Below, one piece after another: positions 16,177 through 23,358 of a stretch of 23,358 nt of DNA. Position 1 is the first letter of the stretch; every line of letters starts with the position of its first letter. The stretch is from positions 1 to 23,358 of the IMG/VR virus record IMGVR_UViG_3300037076_000359; one strand, given 5' to 3'. Made by a program: the position numbers and the translations under genes. Below the pieces are notes generated by a model. It was not told the DNA's origin. It searched no databases and was given only the letters and a program-made list of their open reading frames with translations. The stretch is from a virus.

Positions 16177-16659
16177 TCATCGGCCGACTCCGGCGCCCTG
16201 TGGCGCCCGTGGGCGAACGTGGCCGCGGCTGGCGTCGGCGGCGAGGTCCGGGATTATTCGCGAAACTCGGCCGCGTGCGCACAATTGGGAGGCGCGGTCT
16301 TCCAGGAGCGCACAACCTGCGTGTGGGGTCCCCCGGTCGGCCTGTCCGGCACCCTTCGTCGAGTTGCACGACCGGCAGAGGACGGCGCAGTTGCCGATGT
16401 CGAAGGGCGCGCCGCCTGACGCCAGCGGAACGACATGGTCAACGGTCAGGTCGCTGGCAGGGTGGGCGTCACGCTGGTAGCCCGGGCACCAGTTCCCATG
16501 CTCGCCACGCCATGCGCGAAGCACTCGGGCGCTGAGGCGCTGCCAGGCGCGCGTGCTGTACAGGGCGTTGTGCCGACTGCGGTTCGATTGGCGCGCGTGC
16601 TGCGTGCAGCGACTGCCAGGTCGGCTGGTGACCACGCCGCAGACCGTGCAGAGCTTCAT
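16177..16659 (-). CDS. HNH endonuclease
   Basis: A 160-residue protein. The fold carries a CTVC pair (residues 4-7) with C18/H21, then a second zinc region. The HNH core is VDHVVPLASGG (His75), DIGNCAVLC with the Asn at 90, and CRSCNSTKG (95-103). Such HNH proteins next to terminase genes in HK97-like phages are needed for cos cleavage during packaging, and position upstream of the packaging operon supports that role. The last 50 residues after CNSTKG are Arg/Ala-rich and unlike the family, perhaps a non-conserved tail. A free-standing homing endonuclease is the main alternative. Confidence 0.85.
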   Translation of the reverse strand: MKLCTVCGVVTSRPGSRCTQHARQSNRSRHNALYSTRAWQRLSARVLRAWRGEHGNWCPGYQRDAHPASDLTVDHVVPLASGGAPFDIGNCAVLCRSCNSTKGAGQADRGTPHAGCALLEDRASQLCARGRVSRIIPDLAADASRGHVRPRAPQGAGVGR

Positions 16660-16859: not shown

Positions 16860-17192
16860 TCAGCGCCTCGATGCTGCCTTCGGTCGCGGACCGGGTTGAT
16901 GTCGTCGAAACTGGAGGACGGCGGCGAGATCGCCCGAGACCGCGGCATCGCGAGCCTTCGCCTTACGGAAAGCAATCACAGAGTCGGCGAGTTCCGCTGC
17001 CGACTCCGGGGCAGCCAGAACCAGAGCTGCCACCAGTTCCTTTCTGTTCGTCCGGGCGCCCTCGGCGTCCGCGAGCTCAACGAGCCTGTCGAGCCTCTCA
17101 TTCAAGGGACCCGGGAGTCCGATCGTGATCGGCCGCTCTTGGCATGACGTGAGTCTCGCTTCGGGACTGAGCACGACATTGCTTTCGTCCAT
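16860..17192 (-). CDS. Putative ribbon-helix-helix-like regulator
   Basis: A 110-residue protein. Residues 21-65 read as a short strand (PITIGLP) followed by two helices (LNERLDRLVELADAEG and NRKELVAALVLAAP), the layout of a MetJ/Arc-type DNA-binding domain. A third helix (ELADSVIAFRKAKARDAA) and a basic tail follow. It diverges from the PRTase-like gene over a short intergenic space filled with TAGAC/GTCTA half-sites, fitting autoregulation. No ribosome binding site precedes its ATG; TAGTCT lies five bases upstream as a possible -10 for a leaderless message. Assignment is from pattern only. Confidence 0.6.
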   Translation of the reverse strand: MDESNVVLSPEARLTSCQERPITIGLPGPLNERLDRLVELADAEGARTNRKELVAALVLAAPESAAELADSVIAFRKAKARDAAVSGDLAAVLQFRRHQPGPRPKAASRR

Positions 17193-17231
17193 AGTCCAGA
17201 CTACGATAGACGACGATTAGACACAGGTCTA
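17192..17231. promoter_or_regulatory. Candidate operator array of TAGAC / GTCTA half-sites
   Basis: Two palindromes lie between the divergent genes: TAGTC-CA-GACTA (17192-17203) and TAGAC-ACAG-GTCTA (17218-17231). A further TAGAC stands at 17207-17211, exactly 11 bases before the next. Half-sites at one-helical-turn spacing are typical of cooperative ribbon-helix-helix operators. The array overlaps the predicted promoters of both genes. Confidence 0.55.
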
Positions 17232-17235
17232 TAAC
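17207..17235 (+). promoter_or_regulatory. Promoter for the PRTase-like gene
   Basis: TAGACG (17207-17212, -35-like, four of six bases matching TTGACA) is followed after 17 bases by TATAAC (17230-17235, -10). Transcription would start near 17242, with GAGGG just before the ATG at 17263. Both boxes overlap TAGAC/GTCTA half-sites. Confidence 0.55.
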
Positions 17236-17262
17236 TTGTCTTCCGGAAGGTACGAGGGATCG

Positions 17263-17724
17263 ATGGAGCAGGTGCGCGGAGAGCCGGCTCGACAGCCACG
17301 ACCCGACAGCGACTGGATCGGCATAATCCATAGGGCCGGGCGAGATCTCGAGGAGTCGCTGTCTGATCCAGATCGACTGAGGGAGCTGACATCTCAACTA
17401 GCCGACTTTGCGGTGGTCACTGGAGCAGGGATGATCACGGGTTCATCGCCGCTCGGGAATCAGCTGGCCGGGCTCGTTGTGGGCATGGCGAAATCACCGC
17501 TCGCCCTCTGGGCACAGAACGGAGCCCACGGGACGGTGCTGGTCATTGAGGGCGTCCTCGCATCTGGGGCGCAGCTGACCAGTACGGCGAGGCGCGCTCG
17601 CGCGGCTGGGGCAGACCGTGTGGTGGGAGCCGCAGTGGTCGCCGAGTCGAGTGGCCTAGCCAGTTGCCGCAAGGAGCTCGGCGACGAAATCCGTGCGCTT
17701 CGGGAACTAGCTCTCACCCCCTAG
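17263..17724 (+). CDS. Phosphoribosyltransferase-like protein
   Basis: A 153-residue protein. The ATG at 17263 has GAGGG close upstream; a TTG at 17236 would add nine residues. Residues 92-105 (VLVIEGVLASGAQL) match the PRPP-binding loop of type I phosphoribosyltransferases, followed by the expected helix and strand (RRARAAGADRVVGAAVVAES). The usual paired acidic residues before the loop are E-G here, so catalysis may be altered or lost. Before it, TGAGMITGSSPLGNQLAGLV resembles the early substrate-side loop. It diverges from the small regulator gene. A nucleotide-salvage role, a regulatory PRTase or a defence-type effector are all possible. Confidence 0.6.
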   Translation: MEQVRGEPARQPRPDSDWIGIIHRAGRDLEESLSDPDRLRELTSQLADFAVVTGAGMITGSSPLGNQLAGLVVGMAKSPLALWAQNGAHGTVLVIEGVLASGAQLTSTARRARAAGADRVVGAAVVAESSGLASCRKELGDEIRALRELALTP

Positions 17725-17741
17725 ACCTGGCGGACGCACAA

Positions 17742-18200
17742 TCAATCGCATTCCGCGAGAACGAGGGCGCCAAGCCCAGCCACGACCGCGTCCCGGTCTA
17801 GGTCTCCTAGGAGACGGGTCGCCGTGGCTTCGATCTCGATCTTCGAGACCCCGCAGAGGTCCCCAATCTCCCGCCCTGAGTAGGCCGCAACGACGGGAAC
17901 TACGCGACGCGCAACGGACAGCAAGACCCCCTCCACCTGGATTCGTGGCCGCGCGACGTTCTCGCGTCGGGCCTGGAACCAATCCATCGCTCTCACGACG
18001 ACAACAGCCGGAGGAAGCTTCCCGAGCTCGTGGTCGAGGTCGTTCGCCAGGAGCATGAGAGCCCGAGCCCGGTCGGTCGATTCGCATCGGTGCAGGAAGA
18101 CCTGCCGGCCCGTCGGCGCGGCTCGCGATCCCGTCAACTCAACCCCAACCACGACGGGGTTCCCGTGATCGATCCTCACCGCCATTCCCCAGACCGTCAC
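17742..18200 (-). CDS. RuvC / RNase H-fold-like protein
   Basis: A 152-residue protein from GTG with AAGGAGG five bases upstream. The pattern is RNase H-like: first strand VVVGVELTG (acidic residue E21), a helix, then PPAVVVVRAMDWF, a segment IQVEGVLLSVARRVVPVVAAYSGREIGDLCG resembling RuvC resolvases, and a final helix with DRDAVVAGLGALVLAE. RuvC enzymes need acidic residues at several of these points; the one expected in the VVVV strand is Arg70, so activity is doubtful. It converges on the PRTase-like gene with a 17-base gap and diverges from the kinase. A DNA-junction-binding protein or non-catalytic homologue is plausible; low certainty. Confidence 0.45.
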   Translation of the reverse strand: MTVWGMAVRIDHGNPVVVGVELTGSRAAPTGRQVFLHRCESTDRARALMLLANDLDHELGKLPPAVVVVRAMDWFQARRENVARPRIQVEGVLLSVARRVVPVVAAYSGREIGDLCGVSKIEIEATATRLLGDLDRDAVVAGLGALVLAECD

Positions 18201-18211
18201 TCCATCCTCCT

Positions 18212-18217
18212 TACAAT
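18212..18217 (+). promoter_or_regulatory. -10 box for a leaderless kinase transcript
   Basis: TACAAT differs from the consensus TATAAT at one base and ends six bases before the kinase ATG. No Shine-Dalgarno sequence lies in the gap, so transcription would start at or next to the ATG. No good -35 hexamer was found. Confidence 0.5.
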
Positions 18218-18223
18218 GGCCGA

Positions 18224-19252
18224 ATGATAGGGACGACGTTCGCGAATCGCTACGAGATCCTCGGCAAACTTGGCGAGGGCCTGAACGACGTCTGGAAGGC
18301 CCACGACACTCATCAGCAGCAACTCGTCGCCCTCAAGACGTTCCGGCCTGGATCATCGACCATCCACGTGTATGGGGAAGCCACGATCCTGACGGCGCTC
18401 GAAGGCGAGCACGTGCTGCGGGTCTACAACGCCGACACATACGACGATATCCCGTACATCGCAGCGCGGATCGCCCCATTGGGATCCGCGGAGGGTTTCC
18501 GCAAGGCGAACCTGCTCGGGCTGCCAGCCGATACGGTCGTTAGCTGGATCCGGCAGGTGCTGGTCGGGCTTGGCGCCTGTCACGACCGGGGCCTCCTCCA
18601 CCGCGACATCAAGCCCGACAACATCTTCCTCGACACCCCGGAGTTCGCGTTGTTGGGCGACTTCGGGCTTGCCTACCAGCTTGATCGGGATGGAACGGCT
18701 CCCGCGGAGGGGAGCCCCTACACGATTGCCCCAGAGATGTGGTCGACGGGGCGGGGAACCGTCGCTTCCGACATCTACTCCATGGGCGTGACGGCCTATC
18801 GACTGCTCACGGGCCAGTGGCCCTTCGATCGACCATCGCGTGACGAAATCCGGGCTCTCGTCCCCACGGGCCGCTATACGCGGGTTCGCGACCTTGCTCC
18901 GCAGGTGTCAAGACGCCTCGCGGACCGCATCGAGAAGGCGATGTCCCTCGAACCGGCCTCGCGGTATCCGTCGTGGCGAGACATGCACGCAGACCTCGGG
19001 CGGGCGGGCGTAGTCGGGAATGTCTGGCGCTGCACCACGCCTCACGGCGACCACGATCGATGCTGGACCCAGACTCGATCCACGCATGGGTCACTCCATG
19101 AGGTATGCGTGATCCGGACGGCGGCGAGCCGATTGGACGTAGAGGTTCGACACGCTGGGGGAGCGGGCCGACGGATCATGGGTATGTGTCGGAGCGGCGT
19201 CGAGGAGCAGCGAATGGCAGTCGCTCTCCGCGATGTGTTTGATCACCTTTGA
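18224..19252 (+). CDS. Serine/threonine protein kinase, first gene of nuclease operon
   Basis: A 342-residue Hanks-type kinase. Visible motifs: glycine-loop region LGEGLNDVWKA (16-26, with Asp in place of the third Gly), VALK with Lys38, Glu52 in GEATIL, catalytic HRDIKPDN (126-133), DFG (146-148), APE (169-171), then DIYSMGV. The catalytic residues are intact, so it should be active despite the changed loop. There is no transmembrane segment or PASTA repeat, unlike PknB, so it is soluble. Residues 265-342 form a separate Cys/His-containing domain (WRCTTPHGDHDRCW, ending LRDVFDHL) of unknown role. It overlaps the GIY-YIG gene by TGATG. Phosphorylation of the downstream proteins, or stress signalling, is inferred. 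Confidence 0.92.
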   Translation: MIGTTFANRYEILGKLGEGLNDVWKAHDTHQQQLVALKTFRPGSSTIHVYGEATILTALEGEHVLRVYNADTYDDIPYIAARIAPLGSAEGFRKANLLGLPADTVVSWIRQVLVGLGACHDRGLLHRDIKPDNIFLDTPEFALLGDFGLAYQLDRDGTAPAEGSPYTIAPEMWSTGRGTVASDIYSMGVTAYRLLTGQWPFDRPSRDEIRALVPTGRYTRVRDLAPQVSRRLADRIEKAMSLEPASRYPSWRDMHADLGRAGVVGNVWRCTTPHGDHDRCWTQTRSTHGSLHEVCVIRTAASRLDVEVRHAGGAGRRIMGMCRSGVEEQRMAVALRDVFDHL

Positions 19253-20049
19253 TGAACCCGCTGCCGACGCCAGACCAAGCCCTCCGTCGACTGATGGACG
19301 CTCGCGGACGTGTAGCCCCAACTGAGCTACACCGGCTGAGCGGTACGGGCGAGCCCGGGATCTATGCCTGGTTCGTCGATGTGGAGGGAGCGGGGCAAAT
19401 CGCGGATGGTATCGGCCTGCCCGTCGACGCCGGCCTCATCTACGCTGGCCAGGCTGGCGCTGGAGGTAGCCACGCGACGCTGGGGAGCCGGATCCGTGGG
19501 AACCACATGGGCTGCGACATCTACGGCTCCACGTTCCGCCTGACCCTCGCGTCACCCCTGCGAATACAACTCGGGCTCGAGCCGATCGGTGGGGGCCACA
19601 TGAGCCGAGACGGCGAGGGTCAGCTGACCGACTGGATGCGCCAGCACCTCATGGTGTCGGTGATCGCCTATCCCGATCGTCTCGGGCTCGATGCGTTCGA
19701 GACGCTTGTCCTCGCCCGCCTGGACCCACCGCTCAACATCGCCAAGCGCCCTGCCACGCCGGTTCGCGCGATGCTCACGAGGTTGCGGCGGCCATTCAGC
19801 AGATCGGGGGATGGTGCTCCCCGTATCGAGCGGCCGCCCCAGCCGTCCGCGAGATCGGCGTTGCACGCCGGCGACGGCCCGACGCCGGAAGACCTCGCTC
19901 GGAGCCTGGGGCTCCGAGACGCGAATAGGGTCCGGGCCTTCCTGCGTGCCCGCTATCCGCGGCCGACGTCGGAGATGAGGACGCGGTGGGGCGCCTTGAC
20001 GCCGGACATGGAGCGAGCCGTGCGCGACCGCTTCCGAGCTGGTCGATGA
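19252..20049 (+). CDS. GIY-YIG nuclease domain protein
   Basis: A 265-residue protein. ATG at 19252 is chosen (TGATG with the kinase stop); a TTG one codon earlier is unlikely. Residues 35-165 read as a GIY-YIG nuclease: PGIYAWFVD (35-43), LIYAGQAG (62-69, YAG replacing YIG), Arg80 in SRIRGNH as catalytic arginine, a helical LTDWMRQHLMV segment, and Glu150 in FETLVLARLDPPLN as the metal-binding glutamate. After a Pro/Arg/Ser-rich linker (165-208), residues 210-265 form a helical module (PEDLARSLGLRDANRVRAFLR) resembling a DNA-binding helix-turn-helix. It overlaps the next gene by ATGA. It likely cuts or nicks DNA. Confidence 0.82.
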   Translation: MNPLPTPDQALRRLMDARGRVAPTELHRLSGTGEPGIYAWFVDVEGAGQIADGIGLPVDAGLIYAGQAGAGGSHATLGSRIRGNHMGCDIYGSTFRLTLASPLRIQLGLEPIGGGHMSRDGEGQLTDWMRQHLMVSVIAYPDRLGLDAFETLVLARLDPPLNIAKRPATPVRAMLTRLRRPFSRSGDGAPRIERPPQPSARSALHAGDGPTPEDLARSLGLRDANRVRAFLRARYPRPTSEMRTRWGALTPDMERAVRDRFRAGR

Positions 20050-20789
20050 CGGGGACCAGCGCGGAGGGCGTCTACCTCCGCCTGCTCCAGGCCGTGGGCG
20101 CCAACGCGGGCGATATCGGTCGAGGCATCATCGCGGCCCACTGGCCTTTCGTGGGGTCGGACTACCACGGCCTGGTAGTCGTTGGGCAAGCACTCCAGGG
20201 CTGGGATGCAGCGGAGACGCCGGCGCGCTGGACCGCCGCGGAAGCGTCGACGCCTGAAGGCCAACAGCGCCTCCTCGAAGGGGCGCAAGAATGGGCAAGG
20301 AATCGTCGCGAACCGTTGTGGGAGGTCGTCCGGCGGGGACACCGATCGGGTTCGCCCTTCTGGTCGGTGTCGCGACGGCTCGTTCCTGTGCTGGAACCAG
20401 ATCGAGCAGGCGTCTGGTACAGCCGATACGCTTGGTGGAACGTCTACCCGCTCGGCTGGGACGACCCAGACAAGGGACCTGACGGCGCCCTGAAGGCAGT
20501 GCAGACGCCCCTCGTCGGCGAGCTCTTCTGGGCCGTGATGGACGACATCGGCGCTCGCAGGATCGTGCTCGTGGCCGGCAAGGATTGGTGGCCGGAGGTC
20601 CGCGAACTTCTCGATCTCCGCGACCTTCGCCATGGGGAGCGTCCAGTGCTCGCGGTGGGGCGTAGCCACGGCCGGCACGTCGTCGCCTCCTACCATCCTC
20701 GGGGCGCCCGCCAGCAAGGGATCCGCGACGGGCAACTTGTCGAGGCGATCGCTGCCGCCTTCGCAAGGATCGACCAGGAGGAGCCATGA
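20046..20789 (+). CDS. Uracil-DNA-glycosylase-superfamily-like protein
   Basis: A 247-residue protein. ATG at 20046 overlaps the GIY-YIG stop; the longer frame upstream only shadows that gene. The motif layout resembles the UDG fold: LVVVGQAL (43-50, motif-1-like), an aromatic YAWWNVYPLG (128-137, with an Asn-Pro pair as in the uracil pocket), LVAGKDWW (175-182, in the place of the VLxG strand), and SYHPRGARQQG (215-225, the HP motif before the last helix). The catalytic Asp or Glu expected in motif 1 is not evident, and no Fe-S cysteine cluster is seen. It may excise or bind modified bases. A search is needed to confirm the superfamily. Confidence 0.5.
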   Translation: MTGTSAEGVYLRLLQAVGANAGDIGRGIIAAHWPFVGSDYHGLVVVGQALQGWDAAETPARWTAAEASTPEGQQRLLEGAQEWARNRREPLWEVVRRGHRSGSPFWSVSRRLVPVLEPDRAGVWYSRYAWWNVYPLGWDDPDKGPDGALKAVQTPLVGELFWAVMDDIGARRIVLVAGKDWWPEVRELLDLRDLRHGERPVLAVGRSHGRHVVASYHPRGARQQGIRDGQLVEAIAAAFARIDQEEP

Positions 20790-20953
20790 CGCGGCGCCCG
20801 CGCGCCGTCGGTCAGCCCAACCTACAGCAGACGGAGTTGCTCATAGGCTGCCCCCAGCGTCCCACCGTACGCCGACAGCCATGCAGGCGGAGAGTCAGCC
20901 TTGAACCGCAGCCAGACGGTGTCCGTCCCGGCTTGTCCCCCATGCTGGTGTGA
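20786..20953 (+). pseudogene. Apparent remnant of a fourth operon gene
   Basis: An ATG overlaps the UDG-like stop (ATGA) with AGGAGG four bases upstream, the same coupled junction as between earlier genes. The frame begins MTRRPRAVGQPNLQQTELL but runs only 55 residues, and from about residue 13 it lies antisense to the 3' end of the endonuclease gene. A truncated gene cut by arrival of the restriction-modification module is the simplest reading. A genuine short peptide or a chance frame cannot be excluded. A CGGCGC-CCGC-GCGCCG hairpin lies at 20792-20807. Confidence 0.4.
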
Positions 20954-21385
20954 CAGCCCGGCCTTGAATGGCTGTTCCAGGAGGACAGGCTTGGGAACGA
21001 CCCAGCAGGAGCCCGAGAACGGCGACAGTCCGAGGAGCAGGGCTACGTCGTAGCGCTGGTTTCGAATCTGTTGGAAGACATAGTCTCCGGACTCCCAGAG
21101 CGTCGAGAACTTGATTTCGACGCGCTTTCCGTCAATTACCCGGTCGGCGTCCGAGTCGCCGGTGCGGATGACGTCGAGGCCCTTGGCGGCGAACCAGCCC
21201 GCGACCAGTTGCTCGCCGATCGAGCCGACCTGACGGGACGGGCGAGTCTTGATCCAAGCGAACGGACTCCCGAGCCACGGGTCGTCCGCCCCCTTGACGT
21301 AGTCGCCCATGAGGGCGGCCGAGATGGACGCCAGTAGCGCCACGTCTTGGTCGGAGATAGGCCGCGACGGACCCACGATGCTCAC
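20822..21385 (-). CDS. PD-(D/E)XK restriction endonuclease, partner of the methyltransferase
   Basis: A 187-residue protein from GTG, two bases after the methyltransferase stop, so co-transcribed and probably coupled. Residues 54-95 carry the nuclease core: Glu58 (GSIGEQLVAGWFAAKGLDV), Asp79/Asp81 in DSDADRV, and the catalytic pair E90-x-K92 in VEIKFS. The following RNQRYDVALLLGLSP segment fits the fold. The rest, including PPAWLSAYGG near the C-terminus, is not assigned. Gene order and size match a type II restriction enzyme cognate to the adenine methyltransferase. Confidence 0.78.
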   Translation of the reverse strand: MSIVGPSRPISDQDVALLASISAALMGDYVKGADDPWLGSPFAWIKTRPSRQVGSIGEQLVAGWFAAKGLDVIRTGDSDADRVIDGKRVEIKFSTLWESGDYVFQQIRNQRYDVALLLGLSPFSGSCWVVPKPVLLEQPFKAGLSHQHGGQAGTDTVWLRFKADSPPAWLSAYGGTLGAAYEQLRLL

Positions 21386-21387
21386 CG

Positions 21388-22299
21388 TCAGCCAGCCGCG
21401 AAGAGGGTCGTCTGGACATCAGCGTCTGGCGGGTTCAGACCGCGGTAGGCAACGCCTTCGAACTGAGCGAACCGCTCCGCCATCACGCGAGCAGCTTCGG
21501 GGTTGTTGTCCACCAGGAGGAAGCGACGTCCAAGTTCGTAGGCTGCGGCGCCCGCGGTGCCACTCCCCGCGAAGAAGTCGGCCACCAGGCCTCCCTCCGG
21601 GCAGGACCCTTGAACGACGCGCCGCAGGATGCCCAGCGGCTTCTGATTCGGGTAGCCGGTGCGCTCCTTCCCGTTCGTCGGGACGATGGTGTGCCACCAC
21701 GTGTCGGTCGGGAGTTTCCCGCGGGCCGCCTTCTCGGGCCCGACCAGCCCCGGCGCCATGTATGGGATCCGCTCGATTGCCTCGGCGTCGAAGAAGTAGC
21801 GGGCAGGATCACGGACGTAGACGAGGATGTTGTCGTGCTTCGGCGGCCACTTCTTGTTCGTGCGGGCGCCATAGTCGTATGCCCAGATGACTTCGTTGAG
21901 GAAGCAGTCCCGGCCGAAGATCAGATCGAGGAGCACCTTGCAGTAATGCACCTCGCGGTAGTCGATGTGGAAGTACAGGCTGCCGGTCGGCTTCAGGATG
22001 CGCCGCATCTCGACCAGTCGGGGTTCGAGGAACGCGAGGTAGTCGTCGTGAACGTCGACGTAGCTGCTGCTGCCGACCTTCACGGTGCGGTATCGGTTCC
22101 CCTGAAACCCGGTCCTGTCACCATCTTCATCTCGGACAGTCTTGATGCTCGTCAGGGTCTGGCGCTTGCCGGTGTTGAACGGCGGATCGACGTAGATGAG
22201 GTCGATACACTCGTCTGGCAGACCCGCCAGCACCTCAAGGTTATCGCCCAGCAAGACCTGACCGCGAGCGCCGTCCAAGACTGGGTCCGAGGCTGTCAT
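21388..22299 (-). CDS. DNA adenine methyltransferase (type II R-M)
   Basis: A 303-residue protein. ATG at 22299 is preferred to an upstream start that would overlap the divergent nuclease gene. Motif IV DPPFNTG (38-44) precedes motif I DFFAGSGT (241-248), the beta-class order. DPPF points to N6-adenine methylation. Other family landmarks are RRILKPTGSLYFHIDY (99-114), the HDNILVY strand, YPNQKPLGILRRVV (216-229) and FLLVDNNPEA. It would protect host DNA from the neighbouring nuclease. No ribosome binding site is evident; TAGGCT eight bases upstream may be a -10 for a near-leaderless message. Confidence 0.9.
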   Translation of the reverse strand: MTASDPVLDGARGQVLLGDNLEVLAGLPDECIDLIYVDPPFNTGKRQTLTSIKTVRDEDGDRTGFQGNRYRTVKVGSSSYVDVHDDYLAFLEPRLVEMRRILKPTGSLYFHIDYREVHYCKVLLDLIFGRDCFLNEVIWAYDYGARTNKKWPPKHDNILVYVRDPARYFFDAEAIERIPYMAPGLVGPEKAARGKLPTDTWWHTIVPTNGKERTGYPNQKPLGILRRVVQGSCPEGGLVADFFAGSGTAGAAAYELGRRFLLVDNNPEAARVMAERFAQFEGVAYRGLNPPDADVQTTLFAAG

Positions 22300-22356
22300 A
22301 GTGGCCGAGCCTAGCACATCACTCCGAACGCTTTTCGATGGCCCAAGGAGCCCCCG

Positions 22357-22878
22357 ATGCCTGTACTCGTTTCGCTCACCGAAGCCGAGGTCGACGAGGC
22401 AAACCGCCTCGGGGACGCGACCTACGAAGTCTTCAAGGGCCGTCCCGGGTACTACCGCAATCTGCAGGGGAGCCACCGCAAAGGGAAGTACGGGGAGGTG
22501 GCCGTCGAGAAGTGGGCGAAGGCACTGGGTCTTGAGGTCGAGTCGGTCTTTCGCGACATCTCGCAGACGCGTCGCGAGGACCTCGTGATTGGCGGCATCC
22601 GCGTCGAGGTGAAGACGTGGGACGACGGGACTTGGGATGACATGGGCCGGTGCGTCACGCCTGGACAGCTTGGCACCCTGCGCCGCAAGGCAGACGCCAT
22701 CATCTGGTGCTCAGTCGAAGGCAGCGAGGTGACGCTGCACGGGTGGTCCACACTCGACGACATTGAGGTTCAGCCCGTCAAGATGACAGGGCCGTCCCAC
22801 TACCCCGTGGCCAATCATCAAGTACCAGCAGAGCAGCTGCGCCCTCTCGACCGGCTCCTCGACCTAACCCCGCGGTGA
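22357..22878 (+). CDS. Second PD-(D/E)XK nuclease, divergent from the methyltransferase
   Basis: A 173-residue protein; AAGGAG lies six bases before the ATG. Residues 44-90 hold a nuclease core: Glu47 (KYGEVAVEKWAKALGLEV), Asp75 in REDLVIGG and E84-x-K86 in VEVKTWDD. The fold continues with RKADAIIWCSVEG and a WSTLDDIEV strand, and the C-terminus LRPLDRLLDL may be a dimerisation helix. It points away from the methyltransferase across 57 bases. It could be the real cognate enzyme, a second specificity, or a strand-nicking partner. It shares no clear identity with the 187-residue nuclease beyond the core motif. Confidence 0.72.
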   Translation: MPVLVSLTEAEVDEANRLGDATYEVFKGRPGYYRNLQGSHRKGKYGEVAVEKWAKALGLEVESVFRDISQTRREDLVIGGIRVEVKTWDDGTWDDMGRCVTPGQLGTLRRKADAIIWCSVEGSEVTLHGWSTLDDIEVQPVKMTGPSHYPVANHQVPAEQLRPLDRLLDLTPR

Positions 22879-22895: not shown

Positions 22896-23150
22896 TCAGG
22901 TCAGCGAGGGTTCGAGACTCGGCACCACGAGGCGTCCGGATGCCCGCCCGACGTAGATCAGCTGCTCGGTGGTAAGACCCGACCGTGCACGGAGGTCGGC
23001 GAGGTGACGCTTGACCGTGCTCGGACGGATGCCCACGAGTTCGGCCGCGTCCTGGACGGACCCACCTGCGGCGACGAAGGCAGCGAGCACGTCCATCTGG
23101 CGCTGCGTCGCCCTAGGCGAGAGCGCTCCGCGCAGGTACCCGTCCTTCAT
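22896..23150 (-). CDS. Free-standing LuxR-type helix-turn-helix regulator
   Basis: An 84-residue protein. ATG at 23150 has GAGG eight bases upstream and overlaps an 18-codon frame by ATGA; the frame upstream of it lacks protein character. Residues 10-70 match the GerE/LuxR C-terminal domain: LSPRATQRQMDVLAAFVAAGGSVQDAAELVGIRPSTVKRHLADLR, with TVKRHL as the recognition helix. It lacks a receiver or ligand-binding domain. It sits 17 bases beyond the convergent nuclease, so it may time expression of the restriction genes the way controller proteins do, though those are normally of another helix-turn-helix type. Target unknown. Confidence 0.75.
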   Translation of the reverse strand: MKDGYLRGALSPRATQRQMDVLAAFVAAGGSVQDAAELVGIRPSTVKRHLADLRARSGLTTEQLIYVGRASGRLVVPSLEPSLT

Positions 23151-23203
23151 GCGAAGTGCCTCGCAGCCGCGGCGACCCACTCGTCGCGGCCCTCGATCGG
23201 CAT
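23147..23203 (-). CDS. Possible 18-residue leader peptide before the HTH gene
   Basis: The frame reads MPIEGRDEWVAAAARHFA and ends in ATGA overlapping the regulator start, so translation could be coupled. No Shine-Dalgarno sequence precedes it; TACAAC seven bases upstream may be a -10 for a leaderless message. It could also be chance. Nothing is known of its function. The rest of the window to the right edge (23204-23358) shows no supported gene. Confidence 0.3.
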   Translation of the reverse strand: MPIEGRDEWVAAAARHFA

Positions 23204-23358
23204 GGTGTAGGTTGTAATCGCGCGTCCAACACCTGTCGGGCGCGCTCTCCTTTTGTGTAGTGTCCGGACCTATGCGACGGATCACCGGCGATTGAAGGCG
23301 CTCGCGGCGCCGACTCGTTTGGGTATCTCCGGGCTCGCCTGGCGCCTCCCGCGTCACT

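Follow-up and report, generated by a model that had tools for sequence, protein, structure and literature searches.

A kinase, a GIY-YIG nuclease and a UDG-fold protein encoded by overlapping genes in the accessory cargo of a phage probably belong to two adjoining modules

Do three overlapping genes in the cargo of a phage form one defence system, or do they belong to separate modules that lie side by side? The question is raised by an IMG/VR virus record that was analysed over its whole length of 23,358 bases, here called the window. Its plus strand carries a kinase gene (gene 1, 18224..19252, 342 aa), a GIY-YIG nuclease gene (gene 2, 19252..20049, 265 aa counted from its ATG, with an in-frame alternative start TTG at 19249) and a gene for a UDG-fold protein (gene 3, 20046..20789, 247 aa). 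The overlaps reported by the first-pass annotation are confirmed by the ORF coordinates. Genes 1 and 2 meet in TGATG (TGA at 19250-19252, ATG at 19252-19254), genes 2 and 3 in ATGA (ATG at 20046-20048, TGA at 20047-20049). In each of the three genes, GC at third positions is 0.77-0.78, and dN is well below dS in comparison with their homologues. Thus, all three are truly coding and intact.

The product of gene 2 is, by its sequence, a GIY-YIG nuclease of the GIY_YIG_2 family with predicted nuclease activity. It matches PF20815 at 2e-11 with 44.5 bits against a cut-off of 22.4, and P35, G36, Y38, Y64, G66, R80, H85, E150 and N162 are invariant across seven GIY_YIG_2 homologues (alignment A1), so that the earlier assignment with its landmarks Arg80 and Glu150 holds. 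The protein reads G36-I-Y38-A-W40, a Trp standing where the third Tyr of the GIYxY-YIG motif would be. Its C-terminal extension is common to homologues from Paenarthrobacter plasmids. None of the PADLOC models matched gene 2 at E<=1, and viral scans with the nuclease, which reach close relatives only, found none.

The UDG assignment of gene 3, formerly regarded as the weakest link, was borne out by structure prediction. At the sequence level, the match to UDG (PF03167) was 0.003, under the family cut-off, and PDB sequence searches returned chance matches only. The AlphaFold model (pLDDT 83.2, pTM 0.86) retrieved the UDG superfamily as its top Foldseek matches (best E 1.5e-4), and VIA aligned it with the family-4 UDG 4zby at Z 9.7 and an rmsd of 4.1 over 174 residues. 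Nearly all top rows of both searches were UDGs, the best being family-4 UDG and UdgX. As judged from this model, gene 3 is a UDG-fold protein of the UDG superfamily. Its motifs are G47-Q48-A49-L50-x-G-W, A129-W-W-N132-V-Y-P135 and H217-P218. In the model, GQALQGW follows the strand 43-47, N132 lies at the end of the strand 129-132 and the HP motif (217-218) comes after the strand 210-215, an order and placement as predicted for UDG motifs.

Whether this fold excises bases is less certain. In an alignment of seven UDG-like proteins, built with homologues from Chloroflexota genomes (alignment A2), motif A reads GQ(A/S) instead of GQD, GE or GxN and the usual acid is absent. N132 is kept in six of the seven and H217 of the HP motif is invariant, and the alignment holds not a single invariant Asp or Glu. 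Because motif A is devoid of its usual acid and no acidic residue is invariant, excision by gene 3 may be absent. The family is patchily distributed, with matches, several of them weak, in 11 of the 177 genomes of the class. Distant UDG-like proteins mostly stand alone. An HsdM-type gene adjoins two of the genes (recognised by Pfam in L022, by eye in L026), one lies near an ATPase gene that appears OLD-like by eye, and one adjoins a canonical UDG (L023), to which the gene 3 family profile showed no similarity. A tblastn search with gene 3 against plasmids and phages gave no match, and viral scans with the single protein and with small alignments, likewise confined to close relatives, found none.

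Gene 1 is, on sequence grounds, a Hanks-type Ser/Thr protein kinase. It matches Pfam Pkinase at 1e-32, PADLOC and NCBIfam kinase models match its kinase domain, and K38, HRDIKPDN, DFG, APE and a glycine loop are found. The catalytic core had been described as intact. This is correct for HRDIKPDN, DFG and APE, but the glycine-rich loop (window 18275-18300) is one residue short, reading GEGLN-DV against GEGASADV in a 72%-identical homologue, which may affect the predicted kinase activity. Many PD-T4-6 models of PADLOC match gene 1, as do those for MAD6, MkoA and PglW, all of them over essentially the kinase domain only; for this reason, the PD-T4-6 matches were not counted as evidence of membership. 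The C-terminal region of about 80 aa matched no named family. The homologue just mentioned was the one strong match of the class search. It is encoded by the Chloroflexota genome G041 (locus L182) and is homologous over its full length including the C-terminal region. A search of 400 genomes of the phylum with the C-terminal 80 aa had given noise-level matches only, the G041 homologue not among them, and it was recovered only by the later class search. The same 80 aa matched nothing in plasmids. A viral scan with the kinase, also restricted to close relatives, yielded no close relative and a single match at 30%.

Comparison with G041 places the kinase in a block of four genes. Immediately upstream and divergent from it lies g17742 (17742..18200, minus strand), a conserved protein of 152 aa that is 73% identical and syntenic in L182; the gap of 23 bp between the two genes has the identical size there. 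It has no Pfam match, viral scans limited to close relatives found none, and a suspected RNase-H/RuvC-like nature received no support from profile searches. The next gene (17236..17724, plus strand; 70% identical and syntenic) encodes a putative phosphoribosyltransferase-like (PRTase-like) protein with the PRPP-loop-like sequence VLVIEGVLASGAQL, in which the acidic pair of the loop reads EG. This is a weak call: the top PDB profile match is a PRTase at E 0.08, and the L182 homologue matches Pribosyltran at 0.01. The fourth member, g16860 (16860..17192, minus strand), is a conserved protein of 110 aa that is 75% identical and syntenic. Order and orientation of the four genes are kept in G041 (L182:9143-11512), where the block shares 69% nucleotide identity with window 16885-19066. 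The kinase gene of G041 ends in TAG, with no GIY-YIG or UDG gene behind it. Genes for a tyrosine integrase, an excisionase-like HTH protein, a prim-pol and a serine recombinase surround the block, which therefore lies on a mobile element. The window and L182 are the two loci from which the kinase module is known. In the short intergenic region of the window (18201-18223), a TACAAT stands about 6 nt upstream of the kinase ATG and a TACACT is similarly placed in L182, a placement that suggests a leaderless kinase transcript. An AAGGAGG precedes the GTG start of the divergent g17742.

That the three genes are one system had been made to depend on their co-occurrence in other genomes, and here the comparison came out against the trio. 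Neither the 177 class genomes nor the viral scans, which reach close relatives only, gave a second kinase/GIY-YIG/UDG trio; two profile searches covered 400 genomes of the phylum. The GIY-YIG/UDG pair was encountered elsewhere as a single decayed remnant at the contig end of a Chloroflexota MAG (L006), where the beginning of an HNH gene of phage type is followed by aa 1-47 and, directly fused to them, aa 248-261 of the GIY-YIG protein, by an ATGA junction as in the window, and by aa 1-127 of the UDG-like protein with a frameshift. No kinase is visible, but as the contig stops within this HNH gene, one could lie elsewhere in that prophage. The pair is thus known from the intact copy in the window and a second, decayed one (83-87% identity), which falls short of establishing long-term co-conservation. 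Other GIY-YIG homologues stand alone or with partners other than those in the window. Because the G041 kinase occurs without GIY-YIG and UDG genes and the L006 pair without a visible kinase, the trio splits, and the kinase block and the pair were probably inherited separately as two modules side by side. A literature search found no paper describing a kinase/GIY-YIG/UDG system.

The genomic setting was examined with 23 contigs of related phages (58-93% identity) fetched by a terminase scan. On the terminase side, the locus is bordered by a conserved phage gene for an HNH protein (16177..16659, minus strand) that is 51-76% identical in L092, L095, L099, L100, L102 and L104. The other border is an HTH protein (22896..23357, minus strand; 69-77% identical in L099, L102 and L104), whose true start is probably the internal MKDGYLRG. 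Its gene and that of a serine integrase overlap at about 23174-23248, where the integrase gene has its 3′ end (integrase C-terminus match 2e-8). In L099, L102 and L104, about 1-4.3 kb separates the two borders, and other genes fill this interval. Hotspots of related phages contain a PemK/MazF toxin, Schlafen-AlbA, Gp49-like plus TPR/HTH proteins, or proteins of no recognised kind, and none of the related contigs carries the kinase, GIY-YIG or UDG-like gene. As the borders are conserved, the contents differ and the three genes are absent from the relatives, the locus is variable phage cargo, and the region from 16.8 to 22.9 kb is composite accessory cargo in a phage hotspot. The host of the phage is most likely a member of the Chloroflexota. 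In the hotspot of one relative (L104:2020-2796), a protein of 258 aa with no Pfam or PADLOC match carries an IGINAYLN motif, which may hint at another UDG-like protein.

Downstream of gene 3, the cargo contains a type II restriction endonuclease (20822..21385, minus strand; PADLOC REase_II 2e-57) and a type II DNA methyltransferase (21388..22476, minus strand; PADLOC MTase_II 9e-137, Pfam N6_N4_Mtase 1e-39). Since the conserved domain of the methyltransferase begins near residue 73, its true start is probably nearer 22260. The R-M locus lies on the opposite strand and is convergent with gene 3, which corrects the earlier description. The neighbourhood had been taken for a defence island. The defence-like context with an adjoining type II R-M system stands, but the site is an accessory hotspot of a phage and not a defence island of its host. 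On the other strand, overlapping the annotated N-terminus of the methyltransferase, window 22357-22878 encodes a protein of 173 aa with weak REase_II similarity (7e-4) and an EVK motif, possibly a further nuclease.

A recurrent partner of related nucleases is DUF6884. In the nearest GIY_YIG_2 relatives, which are 41-52% identical to gene 2, DUF6884 is directly attached. It overlaps downstream of the GIY_YIG_2 gene in two Chloroflexota loci (L036, L037), abuts a GIY-YIG remnant in L174 and is fused to GIY_YIG_2 in Rhodococcus plasmids, for instance L002. Within the class, three of five DUF6884 loci adjoin a GIY_YIG_2 nuclease or a remnant of one. A UDG fold was suspected for DUF6884 and dropped: in a Foldseek search, our own model of the domain matched YaaA best, and UDG appeared only at rank 47. 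DUF6884 is a YaaA-fold family according to the Pfam authors, and a member was recovered with abasic lesions and has a predicted base-flipping pose (PMC11701544). In the window, a nuclease of this type thus has a protein of UDG fold as its partner in the place of DUF6884. Conceivably, though we regard this as rather doubtful, GIY_YIG_2 proteins supply the cut in a wider, unnamed class of two-protein restriction modules. The other protein would flip bases and could have one fold or another (YaaA-like, as in DUF6884, or UDG-like), and phages would carry such modules against rivals whose DNA is modified or damaged. Two further arrangements were seen among these nucleases. In L036:6013-7846, GIY_YIG_2, DUF6884 and endonuclease/exonuclease/phosphatase genes overlap in a row, possibly a base-lesion nuclease operon. 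In L086:3944-5325, a GIY_YIG_2 gene overlaps a gene carrying DUF6946 and a second, weaker GIY-YIG match.

The explanation we favour, held at somewhat less than even confidence, is that the cargo is a composite of module A (g16860, the PRTase-like gene, g17742 and the kinase), module B (the GIY-YIG nuclease and the UDG-fold protein) and module C (the type II R-M pair), in which B would be a two-protein, base-directed restriction module. The UDG-fold protein would flip out, and perhaps excise, a non-canonical or damaged base in the DNA of an incoming competitor phage, and the GIY-YIG nuclease would cut at or near the flipped or excised site, the ATGA overlap presumably ensuring that both are made in similar amounts. 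We infer this from several precedents. Brig1 and Brig3 are antiphage glycosylases of the UDG superfamily that excise modified bases from phage DNA (PMC11078745, PMC13160076), CMoRE is a GIY-YIG type IV enzyme that cuts phage DNA with modified cytosine (PMC12923530), and AP endonucleases can enhance base-excision restriction (PMC10273834). Modules A and B would have separate histories. Like other kinases borne by prophages, A is probably a unit of its own for sensing or regulation; it may act as a regulator or as a separate defence and may have gained B as an extra output. Since B begins right at the stop codon of the kinase gene (TGATG), kinase and pair may be transcribed together, and control of the pair through shared transcription is possible from the gene order in the window. 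This order is the sole support for the former claim that the kinase controls the nuclease.

Three other explanations have to be weighed against a composite cargo with a base-directed module B. Gene 3 might excise nothing. Its product would then flip bases or bind DNA as a specificity subunit and in this way guide the GIY-YIG nuclease, a part that DUF6884 may play in related enzymes. The loss of the motif-A acid and of any invariant acidic residue in the UDG-like family, the use of a predicted base flipper of different fold by the nearest GIY-YIG relatives (PMC11701544) and the ability of CMoRE to cut modified DNA with no need of a glycosylase (PMC12923530) agree with this. Retention of the UDG fold, of N132 in six of seven proteins and of the HP-motif histidine, together with excision by the Brig enzymes of the same superfamily (PMC11078745, PMC13160076), speaks against it, and we consider a non-excising gene 3 unlikely, if still a serious candidate.

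A single three-component defence system, in which the kinase senses infection and activates nuclease and glycosylase, appears improbable. Overlapping stop and start codons, three coding and intact genes and the presence of kinases in prophage-borne defence, as described for KKP (PMC11341870), are in its favour, and by their overlap the kinase and nuclease genes could have fused two modules functionally; yet no second trio turned up in 177 class genomes or in the viral scans, which reach close relatives only, the 72%-identical kinase has other partners, and the L006 remnant shows no kinase. We give equally little credence to ordinary repair or phage housekeeping, in which the pair would mend phage DNA that contains uracil or is damaged, and the kinase would regulate lysogeny. 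Against such a role, the pair is absent from related phages, the UDG-like family is patchy (11 of 177 genomes, several matches weak) with some copies adjoining HsdM genes, and the locus sits in a cargo hotspot beside an R-M system, even if several Chloroflexota genomes have UDG-like homologues that stand alone, one of them adjoining a canonical UDG (L023), and the kinase is accompanied by a PRTase-like gene within mobile elements.

Two aspects are of general relevance. Genes that overlap in a single genome should not be taken for a single system, since comparison splits the apparent trio. Furthermore, the antiphage proteins of UDG fold (Brig) and the type IV enzymes of the GIY-YIG kind (CMoRE) were discovered recently and separately, and the phage-borne operon described here couples both types. 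This coupling and the DUF6884-paired relatives suggest a recurring flip-or-excise-then-cut design that is testable with two genes.

Among known systems, Brig1 is a close counterpart of gene 3. Both have a UDG-superfamily fold, and the S. tokodaii family-4 UDG 4ZBY, the best Dali match of Brig1 (PMC11078745, PMC13160076), is also the top structural match of gene 3. Like the Brig loci, gene 3 lies in a defence-type neighbourhood, and Brig3-BapA is also found in an operon with a partner enzyme, which is a deglucosylase for Brig3 and a GIY-YIG nuclease here. The functionally important E147 of Brig1 replaces N82 of the S. tokodaii UDG, whereas the apparent counterpart in gene 3, judged by motif order, is N132. 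Gene 2 resembles CMoRE and PD-T4-3 in being a GIY-YIG protein with conserved Arg and Glu that possibly acts on modified DNA. In contrast to gene 2, which belongs to GIY_YIG_2 and has no PADLOC match, these are single-gene systems with a modification-sensing domain of their own and a GIYxY-YIG motif. The GIY_YIG_2 and DUF6884 pairs and fusions of Chloroflexota and Rhodococcus plasmids share the nuclease subfamily and an overlapping or fused partner, which is YaaA-fold there and UDG-fold here. Finally, gene 1 resembles PD-T4-6, KKP and MAD6-type kinases as a Hanks-type kinase on a mobile element. The likeness is confined to the generic kinase domain, and the kinase of the window is accompanied by a PRTase-like protein and two proteins of unknown function.
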